Shown here one piece after another: positions 24,693-35,005 of a stretch of DNA of 49,333 bases. The stretch is taken from assembly GCA_024709105.1 (NCBI GenBank), contig JANJXJ010000125.1:1-49333 (forward strand). Reading direction: 5' to 3'. Position numbers and translations under genes: made by a program. This DNA comes from Lentimicrobium sp. (lineage in GTDB: Bacteria; Bacteroidota; Bacteroidia; Bacteroidales; Lentimicrobiaceae). Position 1 is the first letter of the stretch. Every line of letters starts with the position of its first letter. The notes under the pieces were generated by a model. That model ran no database searches. It was not told the DNA's origin and saw nothing but the letters and a program-made list of their open reading frames with translations.

Positions 24693-24729
24693 TCCCGGAG
24701 ACTGAACATAGGTTTCCGGGATTTTTTTT
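24693..24729 (+). terminator. rho-independent terminator of the small lipoprotein gene
   Basis: TCCCGGA (24693-24699) pairs with TCCGGGA (24715-24721) and is followed by a run of eight T. Confidence 0.8.
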
Positions 24730-30529: not shown

Positions 30530-31606
30530 TTAACCCGGTACTACTCGTTTTTCAATGTATCTGGAATTCATTATTCTTAATGCACCCATGTAATCGAGCC
30601 GGAACTCAATCAAATCGCCGGTTTTGTATTTTTTTTCATTTTTCCCCAGGTCAATAACTATCATGTCTGAACTTGATCCTGCAAACTGAATCTGGTTGTC
30701 AACCGGGCGAAGATATTTGCTTTCTGCATCGAGTAATCCCAGATCGAGAATTGCTCTGTATGAGGTCTGCCCGTTTTCGCTGTCAGTAAAATCGAAGCTG
30801 TGCCCTTCTACATTGGAGCCCATTTCCCCCATTGGTCTGGTGGGTTTTTCAATGAGCTCAATAATTTCAGTATAAAGCCTGAAAATATCATTGTGCATGC
30901 CTTTCAGGACAGTGTCGTGGTAAACATCAGTGCCCAGGAAAAGAGTTTCTCCCACCCTGAAATGGTTGATACCTGAAGGGAGAAGTTTTTGCAGAATCAA
31001 AGGGATTGATACAGAAGAGCCTCCGGAAACCAGGGGGATGGACTTGTTGAACTTAGCCTCAATCAATTGTTTGTAAAGGCTGAGCTGTATGAGTTTGTCG
31101 TGGTTTGGCAATATTCCGTAAAGGCAGGTAAGGTTGGTTCCAATTCCTGTGATTTCGATGTTCGGCAAGGTAAATACATTTTCATAGAATTTGATCAGGT
31201 CATCGCGCATAACCCCTTCGCGCAACTCTCCCAATTCAATCATTATGATTACCTTGTGGATTTTATTTTGTTTGAGCGCCTCTTTTGAAATCAATTTCAG
31301 AGTTCGTAGTTCAGTATTGAGGCTTATGTCGGCATACCGCACAATTTCAGGAATTGACCTGGCAGGAGGAGGCTTGATATATATAGTTTCAATGTCCGGA
31401 GCCAGTTGTTTGATGCTCTTCAGGTTTGAAACCCTTGAGTCACATAATTGTTTGATTCCCAGATTGATCACCTCCTGAAGGAATGTGCGGTTGCCACACA
31501 AGAGTTTGGTGACAACCGCCCACTGAATTTTTTCTTTAGCAAATAGCTTATCAAGACGTGTGTAGTTGTCTTTCAGCTTTTTCGCATTAAGTGTAATGTA
31601 CGCCAT
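30530..31606 (-). CDS. PLP-dependent alanine/ornithine racemase-family enzyme
   Basis: A 358-residue fold-type III PLP enzyme. Lys34 in VVTKLLCGN is the likely PLP lysine. Family features follow: DSRVSNLKSIK, SLNTELRTLKLISKEA, MIELGELREGV, and the phosphate loop GGSSVSIP. The overall pattern resembles ornithine racemase-type proteins (Orr) more than canonical Alr, which has the C-terminal catalytic Tyr domain. The substrate cannot be read. It starts 1 base after the GNAT gene stop, so the two are made together. Confidence 0.82.
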   Translation of the reverse strand: MAYITLNAKKLKDNYTRLDKLFAKEKIQWAVVTKLLCGNRTFLQEVINLGIKQLCDSRVSNLKSIKQLAPDIETIYIKPPPARSIPEIVRYADISLNTELRTLKLISKEALKQNKIHKVIIMIELGELREGVMRDDLIKFYENVFTLPNIEITGIGTNLTCLYGILPNHDKLIQLSLYKQLIEAKFNKSIPLVSGGSSVSIPLILQKLLPSGINHFRVGETLFLGTDVYHDTVLKGMHNDIFRLYTEIIELIEKPTRPMGEMGSNVEGHSFDFTDSENGQTSYRAILDLGLLDAESKYLRPVDNQIQFAGSSSDMIVIDLGKNEKKYKTGDLIEFRLDYMGALRIMNSRYIEKRVVPG

Positions 31607-32323: not shown

Positions 32324-33217
32324 ATGAAATCCAAAAACCTTCACCACGATAACGCCATTCTTGCACAACCCGGCAAAAAACATAAAGTTTCGGATTTTGA
32401 CCCTTCTTACAAAGCTGGTTTAGGAGGTAAAGATGACGGATTATTGTTGCTCGAACAGAATGTGAATGAAATGATTGAGTTGCAGGAAAAGCTTTATGCA
32501 CACAACCGATATTCGGTTCTTCTTATTTTTCAGGCAATGGATGCCGCCGGCAAAGACGGAACCATCAAACATGTTATGTCGGGTCTGAATCCGCAAGGGT
32601 GCGAAGTTTATAGTTTCAAAGCACCTTCGGCTGCCGAACTGGATCACGATTACATGTGGAGAACCAACCGCTGTCTTCCTGAGAGAGGCAGATTTGGAAT
32701 ATTCAACCGCTCATATTATGAAGAAGTGCTGGTTGTTAAGGTGCATCCTGAATTTTTGATGGCACAAAATCTGCCGGGGATTAAAAACACAGCCAATGTC
32801 ACAAAAAAATTCTGGCAGTCGCGCTACAGGCAAATCAATGACCTGGAAAAGCATCTTACCGAAAATGGCACCGTTGTGCTTAAATTTTTTCTGAATGTGT
32901 CGAAAGAGGAGCAAAAAAAGCGTTTCCTTGAGAGAATTGACGACCCCGCCAAAAACTGGAAGTTTTCTTCAAATGATGTAAAGGAAAGGGAACACTGGGA
33001 TGAGTACATGAAGGCATACAGCGAAATGCTTACTGCTACTTCAACAGAATATGCCCCCTGGTATGTTATTCCGGCTGACCGGAAGTGGTTTATGCGTTAT
33101 GCTGTAAGTAACATTATTATTCACCGGTTAAAGGAACTTAAACTTGCTTTTCCGGTTCTCGCTGAAAGTGAACAGCAGAAACTTGAGGAAGCCCGGCAGA
33201 TGTTATTGTCGGAATAA
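32324..33217 (+). CDS. ppk2: polyphosphate kinase 2 (PPK2)
   Basis: A 297-residue enzyme that transfers phosphate between polyphosphate and nucleotides. Walker A is AMDAAGKDGTIKHVM near residue 75. Walker B and the catalytic Arg region is FNRSYYEEVLVVKVHP near 128. The lid region (FLERIDDPAKNWKFS) and a WYVIPADRKWF segment complete the PPK2 layout; size fits the single-domain class. Whether AMP, ADP or GDP is preferred cannot be seen. A promoter similar to TTG-N19-TACTTTTA precedes it. Confidence 0.95.
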   Translation: MKSKNLHHDNAILAQPGKKHKVSDFDPSYKAGLGGKDDGLLLLEQNVNEMIELQEKLYAHNRYSVLLIFQAMDAAGKDGTIKHVMSGLNPQGCEVYSFKAPSAAELDHDYMWRTNRCLPERGRFGIFNRSYYEEVLVVKVHPEFLMAQNLPGIKNTANVTKKFWQSRYRQINDLEKHLTENGTVVLKFFLNVSKEEQKKRFLERIDDPAKNWKFSSNDVKEREHWDEYMKAYSEMLTATSTEYAPWYVIPADRKWFMRYAVSNIIIHRLKELKLAFPVLAESEQQKLEEARQMLLSE

Positions 33218-33300: not shown

Positions 33301-34662
33301 TCAGGGTTGCAGGGAATCAATGGCTGTAATGGAAGCCCTTATGCTTTCGTCACTCACCTGGCTTTCACCGTTTAGCTTTCCTGATAAGTACATGTCATAG
33401 GCTGCCATGTCAAAGTAGCCATGTCCGCAAAGATTAAAGAGTATGGTTTTGCCCACACCCTCTTCGCGGCAGCGGATGGCTTCATCAATTGCAGAAGCAA
33501 TGGCATGAGTGGCTTCCGGCGCGGGAATGATACCTTCGGCTTTGATAAATTGTGCTCCGGCATCAAAACATCTTTGCTGATTTTGTGAAACAGCTTCAAT
33601 CAAACCGTCTTTGAGTAACTGGCTTACAATAACTCCTGCGCCATGGTAGCGCAGACCGCCTGCATGTATGGGCGAAGGCATAAAATCATGGCCCAGGGTA
33701 AACATAGGCAATAGCGGGGTGAGTCCCATGGTATCGCCAAAATCATATCTAAACTCTCCTCTGGTTAGTTTCGGACACGATTCCGGTTCAACTGCAATGC
33801 AACGGATGTACTGATTTTCAGTAAGATTTAGCCTCAGGAACGGAAAAGCAATGCCAGCAAAATTACTTCCTCCACCAAATGGCGCAATAACTATATCGGG
33901 CTGATGGCCTGCTTTTTCCATTTGAATCATTGCTTCCTGTCCAATAATGGTTTGATGCAGCAGGACATGATTCAGCACAGAGCCGAGTGCATAATGGGTG
34001 TCGGGTTGAGATACAGCTCTCTCAATTGCTTCGGAAATTGCAATTCCCAGGCTGCCTGTCGAATCGGGGCTTGACTCCAATACTTTTCTACCTGCAGAGG
34101 TGAGTTGAGACGGAGAAGCAAAAACTTTTCCGCCAAAAGTGTTCATCATGATTTTTCTGTAAGGTTTTTGATCATAACTTACTTTGACCATAAAAACCTC
34201 ACAATCCATGTCAAACATCTGACAGGCATAGCTCAATGCAGTTCCCCATTGTCCTGCACCGGTTTCGGTAGTAATTTTTTTAATTCCTTCAGCCTTATTG
34301 TAAAAGGCCTGAGCCACTGCAGTATTGGGTTTGTGCGACCCAGCCGGGCTAACCCCTTCGTATTTATAGAAAATTTTAGCGGGTGTATTCAGCGCCTTTT
34401 CAAGATTTACTGCCCTGAAGAGAGGGGTTGGCCTCCATTGGGCATAAATCTTTCGCACTTCAGGGGGAATTTCAATATATCTTTCATTGGAAACCTCCTG
34501 TAAAATCAGTTCACGGGGAAATAATGGCTCCAAAAGGTCGGGTGTAATGGGTTGCCGCGTGCCCGGATGCAATGGTGGCAAGGGTTTGTTGGGCATGTCG
34601 GCTGTAATGTTATAATAAAAACGGGGAATTTCCTGTTCGCTCAGGTTTATTTTGCGTTCCAT
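33301..34662 (-). CDS. TrpB-like (TrpB2 type) pyridoxal-phosphate enzyme
   Basis: A 453-residue PLP enzyme of the tryptophan synthase beta-like subfamily (TIGR01415 type). The PLP lysine is Lys111 in GSHKPNTA. Family signs are RPTPLFRA, TTETGAGQWGTAL, GGGSNFAG and GILPAPEATHA-like IIPAPEATHA. Length exceeds the usual TrpB1 (about 400) by the longer N-terminus, as expected of TrpB2. It is thought to act as a stand-alone Trp synthase from serine and indole or as a salvage enzyme; no trpA is nearby. The gene is preceded by a leader peptide with clustered Trp codons, which supports a true link to tryptophan. Confidence 0.9.
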   Translation of the reverse strand: MERKINLSEQEIPRFYYNITADMPNKPLPPLHPGTRQPITPDLLEPLFPRELILQEVSNERYIEIPPEVRKIYAQWRPTPLFRAVNLEKALNTPAKIFYKYEGVSPAGSHKPNTAVAQAFYNKAEGIKKITTETGAGQWGTALSYACQMFDMDCEVFMVKVSYDQKPYRKIMMNTFGGKVFASPSQLTSAGRKVLESSPDSTGSLGIAISEAIERAVSQPDTHYALGSVLNHVLLHQTIIGQEAMIQMEKAGHQPDIVIAPFGGGSNFAGIAFPFLRLNLTENQYIRCIAVEPESCPKLTRGEFRYDFGDTMGLTPLLPMFTLGHDFMPSPIHAGGLRYHGAGVIVSQLLKDGLIEAVSQNQQRCFDAGAQFIKAEGIIPAPEATHAIASAIDEAIRCREEGVGKTILFNLCGHGYFDMAAYDMYLSGKLNGESQVSDESIRASITAIDSLQP

Positions 34663-34801: not shown

Positions 34802-34948
34802 TACTCCCGGCATAAAAATGATATTCCAGGCAGGGCGGAGTATATTACTCCTCAAAAAAGGTTGAGATTAACAGGCAGCCGGGGATGGCCACCACCATGA
34901 CCATGATGTGGAAAGAATGGAAGTAATATTTGCGTTCAGTTTTGTCAT
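34802..34948 (-). promoter_or_regulatory. candidate tryptophan attenuator in front of the TrpB-like gene
   Basis: After the leader peptide stop the minus-strand RNA can fold two ways. GGAGUA (34851-34846) pairs with UACUCC (34842-34837) in a short hairpin. Alternatively UACUCC pairs with a second GGAGUA at 34807-34802, while CCCGGC just after the Trp codons pairs with GCCGGG (34811-34806). The pairings exclude each other. I see no classic stem plus U-run terminator, so the switch may act on Rho or on translation. This reading is inference. Confidence 0.45.
34868..34948 (-). CDS. Trp-rich leader peptide (trpL-like)
   Basis: A 26-codon minus-strand frame from the ATG at 34948 to a TAA at 34868-34870. 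It reads MTKLNANITSILSTSWSWWW, then PSPAAC. Four of five consecutive residues (16, 18, 19, 20) are Trp, codons at 34889-34903. By chance this is very unlikely. It starts 15 bases after a -7 box TAATTTTG and lies about 205 bases upstream of the TrpB-like ATG, the layout of a translation-coupled attenuator in which ribosomes stall at Trp codons when tryptophan is scarce. Confidence 0.7.
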   Translation of the reverse strand: MTKLNANITSILSTSWSWWWPSPAAC

Positions 34949-34963
34949 GGACTTTTCGTAATG

Positions 34964-35005
34964 CAAAATTACTGAAATTATCTGTTGCATTTTCAGGCTG
35001 CAACA
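34964..35005 (-). promoter_or_regulatory. promoter of the trp leader and an adjacent inverted repeat
   Basis: TAATTTTG (34964-34971, minus strand) is a TAnnTTTG match. Upstream, TGTTGCA (34983-34989) and TGCAACA (34999-35005) form a perfect 7-base inverted repeat with a 9-base spacer, in the position of the -33 region. It could be an operator shared with the divergent kinase gene. The rest of 35006-35207 shows no further gene; a plus-strand frame from TTG at 35115 merges with the kinase. Confidence 0.45.

Follow-up and report, generated by a model that had tools for sequence, protein, structure and literature searches.

A conserved, putatively tryptophan-sensing leader of trpB2 in Bacteroidales, with features of a classic attenuator at many loci and without a plain terminator in the clade of a Lentimicrobium sequence

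Introduction

The trpL leader of E. coli is a short reading frame with a run of UGG codons that lies between promoter and gene, together with a terminator and an alternative pairing. The tryptophanase operon has a tryptophan-containing leader peptide, tnaC. This peptide senses free tryptophan (PMC8429421), and the output of the tna operon leader is linked to Rho according to PMC1262725. The same source describes classic Trp attenuators in Actinobacteria, one of them before the trpB2-trpA pair of C. diphtheriae, and raises Rho for Mycobacterium Cys leaders that have no terminators.

Among Bacteroidota, the Bacteroid-trp RNA (Rfam RF01692; Table 1 of PMC2864571) precedes the F. psychrophilum trp operon and has been likened to the E. 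coli Trp leader (PMC6414381). The enzyme TrpB2 is said to have a high affinity for indole (PMC11917138, citing Hettwer and Sterner). Its role as a stand-alone protein is discussed as a guess, namely as an additional function (PMC1854888) or as indole scavenging (PMC11917138). In the accessible text of the literature on these enzymes no mention of their control by a Trp leader was found and, among the matches listed, none is concerned, by its title or abstract, with a Trp leader upstream of a Bacteroidota TrpB2 gene.

The leader described here was encountered in a stretch of 49,333 nucleotides from Lentimicrobium sp., which is called the window. Comparison of related loci indicates a real, conserved TrpB2 leader that would sense tryptophan. 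It appears as a classic attenuator at many Bacteroidales loci and as a terminator-less variant in the clade to which the window belongs.

The leader at the window locus

The leader frame precedes trpB2 on the same strand (Table 1). A sequence-only reading of the window had placed here a 26-codon minus-strand frame whose residues 16-20 are W-S-W-W-W, 15 bases after a TAATTTTG box and about 205 bases before the TrpB-like ATG. The frame and both distances proved exact: 15 bases lie between TAATTTTG and the leader ATG, and the stop codon of the leader is 205 bases away from the trpB2 start codon at 34662. The list of open reading frames of the window contains a 40-codon version of the frame, beginning at an in-frame ATG at 34990. 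The start at 34948 is the better one, because position 34990 lies upstream of the promoter box and the leaders of the nearest relatives begin at the position equivalent to 34948 (e.g. MTKAGLHTISLISSSWSWWWPVQAASIKI in locus L035).

Table 1. Positions of the leader elements and of the gene that they precede in the window.
Feature	Position	Strand	Basis or remark
Leader peptide frame, 26 codons, MTKLNANITSILSTSWSWWWPSPAAC + TAA	ATG 34948 to stop 34868	minus	SWSWWWP core and layout shared with relatives
Regulatory Trp codons TGG TCA TGG TGG TGG, residues 16-20 (W S W W W)	34889..34903	minus	
Putative Bacteroidota -7 promoter box (TAnnTTTG), TAATTTTG	34964..34971	minus	position, and consensus as given in PMC7366714
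P1 hairpin GGUGGCC / GGCUGCC, last two Trp codons and leader end	34874..34893	minus	
Spacer from leader stop to P2	34852..34867	minus	UCUCAACCUUUUUUGA in the window, AUAUAACCCC-like in most relatives
P2 hairpin GGAGUA-AUA-UACUCC, at the terminator's place, without U-run	34837..34851	minus	followed by GCCCUGCC
trpB2, TrpB-like PLP enzyme, presumed target gene	33301..34662	minus	NF009057 and TIGR01415 above cut-off

The trpB2 product scores 713.8 bits with NF009057 (cut-off 366) and 622.8 bits with TIGR01415 (cut-off 518.85), which represent TrpB2 or TrpB-like PLP enzymes. The solved structures closest to it in sequence are the tryptophan synthase beta chains 6hul (labelled beta chain 1), 4qys and 6hte. 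It is the only TrpB match in the window genome, which is a Bacteroidales MAG. The gene seems to stand alone, because its downstream neighbour, a PPK2 gene (32324-33217), is located on the opposite strand. The window also encodes, at 30530-31606, a protein resembling the ornithine racemase Orr (NF040742, 336 bits, below the cut-off of 480), which adjoins a GNAT-like protein.

Conservation of the leader

The leaders of the window's clade are referred to as type II and those found in other lineages as type I. The genus was represented by 19 genomes, and it is the single genus representing its family. TrpB2 is encoded in eight of these genomes, with a Trp-rich leader upstream in all eight. The short Trp-rich frame that the sequence-only reading proposed to look for in an alignment of TrpB2 upstream regions is therefore present in close relatives, both in the genus and at the 24 type II loci described below.

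The frequency of such frames by chance was estimated from 107 order-level TrpB2 upstream regions, with G072, G239 and the lowest-scoring rows below G380 left out. ATG frames of 8-45 codons having at least three Trp in seven occur in 29 of these regions in the sense and in two in the antisense direction. The same scan with the other 19 amino acids gave a like excess for Asn only (15 against 2), which originates from the same NNWWW leaders. At this strict threshold 78 of the 107 loci have no such leader, and neither do most TrpB2 loci of Flavobacteriaceae, Saprospiraceae and other Bacteroidota groups. Partial TrpB2 genes without a start (L234-L236 and L255) were left unjudged. Locus L040, which is 74% identical along part of the sequence, lacks a leader and falls outside the type II clade.

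The motif TAnnTTTG, given in PMC7366714 as the Bacteroidota -7 promoter box, is found within the 53 nt before the leader ATG at 18/22 type II and 22/31 type I loci (40/53 together); it is absent from four control windows of the same length. The Trp box TCATGGTCATGGTGGTGGCC occurs without mismatch once per genome in seven genus genomes, always before trpB2, and was found before no other gene in the genus genomes. Since the leader frame, its Trp enrichment and the promoter box are conserved, transcription of the leader, with a short 5' end, is very probable, as is selection on its Trp codons. Conservation, promoter box and amino-acid specificity together support the prediction of a translated, Trp-specific leader ahead of TrpB2.

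Type I loci

Type I leaders occur in other Bacteroidales and in some contigs titled Chlorobiota. From loci with at least two Trp in seven codons, 36 of them were picked by eye. A hairpin with a U-run, having an energy of -10 to -36 kcal, follows the leader at 35 of the 36, mostly about 40-90 nt before trpB2.

Pairing with the terminator was evaluated for the segment reaching from the last Trp codon to just beyond the stop codon, which is fixed by codon position and not by pairing. At 35 loci (L120, which has no terminator, was dropped) the mean duplex energy of this segment was -20.4 with the terminator of its own species versus -13.3 with those of other species, a difference reached in 0 of 20,000 permutations. 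When seven near relatives were dropped, the values for the remaining 28 loci were -20.3 and -13.1 (z = -11.2; 0/20,000). Control segments gave no pairing signal in this test, the z-score being +2.1 for the leader before the Trp codons and +2.4 for the post-stop spacer. The signal is not uniform across loci: in L072 and L195 the native pairing is no stronger than the average of their crosses, and in L073, L098 and L187 it is only slightly stronger. The partner of the leader is the terminator itself, often its loop and 3' half.

The co-evolution of these segments is strong evidence for two mutually exclusive RNA states, between which a ribosome on the leader could switch. Type I loci, though not every one of them, combine a Trp leader between promoter and gene, a U-run terminator and an exclusive antiterminator pairing. 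Ribosome-stalling attenuation, which the sequence-only reading had proposed for the window, is thus supported as the likely mode of control at many other Bacteroidales TrpB2 genes. However, it is not borne out in this form in the window's own clade, where no strong terminator and no antiterminator were found.

The type II clade

All 24 distinct type II loci with a readable upstream region, two of which are partial genes, carry a Trp leader. The TrpB2 proteins of the other 23 loci are 74-89% identical to that of the window. In a tree of 65 TrpB2 proteins, the 22 type II rows that were included group together as a single clade (support 100/99, recovered in 100% of bootstrap trees), and the type I proteins are scattered.

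The conserved RNA elements are the hairpins P1 and P2. Fold and pairing tests were performed on 18 of the then 20 sequences, L007 and L013 having been dropped as near-copies. P1 pairs the last Trp codons with the leader end; its mean minimum free energy (MFE) z-score is -2.1, and 17/18 sequences are below -1. The spacer and P2 folded together have a mean z of -1.0, with 11/18 below -1. Counted by eye in the MFE folds of 20 type II sequences, P1 is present in 19 and P2 in 16. The arms of P1 co-evolve (z = -3.5), as do those of P2 (z = -3.0), although the latter were picked by eye, making their test partly circular. In relatives, P2 takes forms such as GGGAGC..GCUCC, GGAAC..GUUCC and GGGGGC..GCCUCC. 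Five of its pairs are kept in 17/17 aligned relatives (window excluded), and two pairs have two-sided changes. This alignment omits seven of the 24 loci: L001 (as a test), L010, L013, L019 and L035 (poor alignment of P2 or spacer), and the near-copies L004 and L007.

The pairs of the chosen structure are formed in 100% of the cells for P2 but, owing to a bulge in some P1 hairpins, in 75% for P1. The covariation score of this structure is 0.211, and a shift by one column gives a value nearly as high, 0.207. Covarying stems, which the earlier reading had proposed to look for, show in the tests of the P1 and P2 arms. From the type II alignment A3, RNAalifold predicted no more than 8 pairs, and these showed little covariation. 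That reading had also listed mutually exclusive pairings downstream. One of these, GGAGUA with UACUCC at 34851-34837, is the conserved hairpin P2. The second GGAGTA (inside GCCGGGAGTACC) and CCCGGC/GCCGGG are also present in the window sequence, but they are not conserved features, because the type II co-evolution tests with P2 gave no convincing pair.

A covariance model made without the window sequence, though with its same-genus relatives, found the window leader as the only match at E <=0.01 in the window genome (34831-34897, E 8e-8). When the type II model was applied to 295 order genomes, 57 had matches at E 0.01, most of them near the threshold, the E-values being rough. The six best matches include four trpB2 leaders from relatives, and the window leader itself. 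At the matches L260-L265 no Trp-rich frame was found except the window's own (L261); L262 has a Trp-rich frame elsewhere, on the other strand. The match L260 (G159 C3 195109-195164) has an E-value of 7e-8 and no Trp-rich frame nearby, and the best TrpB match of the G159 genome is only 1.8e-26.

The stretch between P2 and trpB2 is enlarged in L003, L004, L021 and L089, placing the leader 411-551 nt from the gene. By eye it contains repeats, which are GGGACGAGGGACG-like in L003 and L004 and of other kinds in L021 and L089. In L048 (1-217; contig titled Ignavibacteriales) the trpB2 gene comes with a Trp leader (LTAWWWLSC plus stop codon), a P1-like hairpin GCTTTCC/GGAAAGC and the type II motif ACATATAACCC. 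By eye, this locus has neither P2 nor a terminator.

The output step of type II leaders

At the window and in type II as a whole a Trp leader lies between promoter and gene, and neither a proper U-run intrinsic terminator nor a convincing exclusive antiterminator was found. The idea that the downstream pairings act as a switch was not supported. Between P2 and the type II leader segment downstream of the Trp codons no co-evolution was seen (native -9.9 versus -10.4, p 0.92; 18 loci). The right arm of P1 gave z-scores of +0.4 and +1.1 with the left and right arms of P2, and the P1 right arm or the spacer gave -0.4 to +1.3 with the P2 arms. Among 45 segment pairs tested there was no convincing antiterminator involving P2. 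In this screen the left arm of P1 reached an uncorrected p of 0.02-0.03 with the spacer and with the right arm of P2, as did the leader body with the left arm of P2 and the last 50 nt with the right arm of P2. Uncorrected p-values below 0.002 outside P1 and P2 were obtained for leader body with spacer (only -3.7 kcal), for the 5' end with the P1 right arm (-6.4 kcal), and for the last 50 nt paired with the region located 33-78 nt beyond P2 (-11.1 kcal; perhaps arising from repeats). The first two of these pairs might matter.

Two further hairpins were considered and rejected. A short CCC/GGG hairpin rivalling P2 as an antiterminator is no better than shuffles (mean z -0.24), and a third hairpin after P2, common by eye, has a mean z of only -0.75 with 7/18 below -1.

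Rho-dependent attenuation is a possible, if tentative, explanation of the output step. The position of the leader ribosome would determine the loading of Rho onto the C-rich, G-poor spacer, in the manner of the E. coli tna operon, though with a starvation logic. Type II spacers contain 34% C and 5.5% G (24 spacers, 397 nt; partly an effect of ending each spacer at the first G of P2), compared with 13.8% and 13.5% in type I. A strong intrinsic terminator is missing in type II, and the same idea was raised in PMC1262725 for Mycobacterium cys leaders without terminators. Nevertheless, the argument is one of composition, in part by construction, and the C excess shrinks to 30% versus 23% when fixed windows downstream of the stop codon are compared.

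It is rather unlikely that P2 is a weak intrinsic terminator working without a full U-run, which would make the window nearly an ordinary attenuator. P2 occupies the place of the type I terminator, and in L005-L007 five or six of the 8 nt after P2 are T, with a four-T run after the stem in L006 and L007. However, the mean is about 3.5 T in type II as against 6.5 in type I, the stem ends having been set by slightly different rules, and the window has a single T of 8, in agreement with the earlier suspicion that the lack of a plain U-run signifies an unusual version. A U-run hairpin after the leader is absent in 6/20 type II loci including the window; in the remaining 14, the hairpins that precede some T-run reach no more than -2 to -10 kcal, weaker than those of type I. 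U-run hairpins do exist elsewhere in the window, for example at 24693-24721 and 27179-27164, although their total of 27 is only a mild excess over the 20.2 of shuffled sequence.

We also consider it improbable that the type II leader is a relic, or that it works only on mRNA stability or translation and exerts no control on transcription. The absence of a strong terminator and of a detectable antiterminator throughout the clade would agree with such a loss, but the Trp codons, P1 and P2 are kept down to 74% TrpB2 identity and the promoter box at 18/22 loci. Furthermore, the trpB2 start lies 187-551 nt after the leader start, in many loci too distant for direct masking of the start site.

That the Trp run is a chance by-product of DNA encoding a His-rich frame (PHHGHGGGHP) or nothing can be dismissed as extremely improbable: another frame of the leader DNA does read His/Gly-rich by eye, but distant leaders keep the Trp reading alone in different surroundings (NNWWWH, TNWWWL), and frames with 3 His in 7 codons occur at 0/107 loci in the sense direction (type II accounting for three of these loci).

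Probable indole recapture

In all 19 genus genomes TrpA (PF00290) and TrpC (PF00218) gave no match above cut-off, while the controls gave matches in 14/14; the TrpA profile has a weak, short sub-cut-off match in nine of the genomes. The genomes are 72-98% complete, so that an absence from a single genome is weak but an absence from all 19 is not. A gene of the tryptophanase family is present in 19/19 genus genomes, none above the TIGR02617 cut-off; the tryptophanase-like protein of the window genome is above the cut-off of NF053783 (tryptophanase).

The absence of TrpA and TrpC suggests that the cell probably cannot make tryptophan from chorismate. It can probably split tryptophan to indole and rebuild it with TrpB2. 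Because TrpA and TrpC were not found and a tryptophanase-like gene is present throughout, the role of TrpB2 is most likely the recapture of indole. At the level of the order, a single TrpB match per genome is seen for 17/29 loci with the leader compared with 23/78 others (Fisher p 0.007, a test that ignores kinship and counts any kind of TrpB as a second match).

The tryptophanase gene of the genus also seems to have a leader, as seen at two loci. In L278 (about 1325-1460, G000 contig C166) a short frame ends in FRNIKNRDEYQF and a stop codon and is followed by CCAATACTTTAACTATTGG and a T-rich stretch. In L276 the short frame ends in MVMLWLTDKVIFRNIKNRDRY and a stop codon and includes a Trp codon. 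The end FRNIKNRD is common to both frames and recalls a TnaC-like stalling peptide.

Proposed mechanism

Taken as a whole, the observations are best explained by control of trpB2 through a Trp-sensing leader, in which the ribosome stalls under starvation, type I loci function by attenuation and type II loci most likely by premature termination. We regard this explanation as likely. Transcription would start just upstream of the leader, as indicated by the promoter box. When charged tRNA-Trp is scarce, the leader ribosome would stall on the UGG run, as the codons and their conservation suggest. At type I loci the RNA past the Trp codons would then be free to pair with the terminator, so that trpB2 is transcribed; the pairings are those found by co-evolution, their function being presumed. 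With ample tryptophan the ribosome would reach the stop codon and cover the RNA following the Trp codons, and the terminator would form.

What remains in type II is the leader with its two hairpins, P1 covering the Trp codons and P2 beyond the stop codon. Their output is most likely premature termination by another route, either through Rho or through a weak P2. The TrpB2 produced would rebuild tryptophan from indole under Trp shortage.

A more specific scenario is put forward tentatively. A Bacteroidales clade may have swapped the intrinsic terminator of the Trp leader for another output, perhaps recruitment of Rho to the conserved, C-rich spacer or a novel hairpin signal made of P1, AUAUAACCCC and P2. 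It would have kept the starvation sensing, which would switch on a lone, indole-recapturing TrpB2 in cells that degrade tryptophan and are unable to make it.

A Trp-sensing leader, combined with a tryptophanase and with no TrpA or TrpC found, would be direct regulatory evidence for a supply of tryptophan via TrpB2 indole recapture. The series of orthologs, with a putative classic attenuator in some lineages and a terminator-less clade, allows the loss of an intrinsic terminator to be studied.

Comparison with known systems

The window leader resembles the Bacteroid-trp RNA RF01692 in being a candidate for cis-regulation of the trp pathway in Bacteroidota. Unlike RF01692 of the F. psychrophilum trp operon, it precedes a stand-alone trpB2. 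RF01692 gave no match to the window leader at E up to 10, and none of 20 related loci reached its gathering score. In the genus there was no match above cut-off, and the weak ones, among the matches listed, are not at trpB2. The presumed target gene encodes an enzyme of the same kind as the TrpB2 tryptophan synthases 4qys, 6hte and 6hul.

The tnaC leader is likewise a peptide with tryptophan, and a Rho-linked output is one of its features. However, tnaC controls the breakdown of tryptophan, whereas the runs of Trp codons before a synthesis gene suggest that starvation is sensed here.

The classic trp attenuator differs in two respects. The type I leader pairs with the terminator itself, often with its loop and 3' half, and in type II a proper U-run terminator is lacking and an antiterminator was not found. 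Nevertheless, the likeness to E. coli trpL is evident: a short leader that carries a run of UGG codons lies between promoter and trpB2, and the type I loci add a terminator and an alternative pairing.
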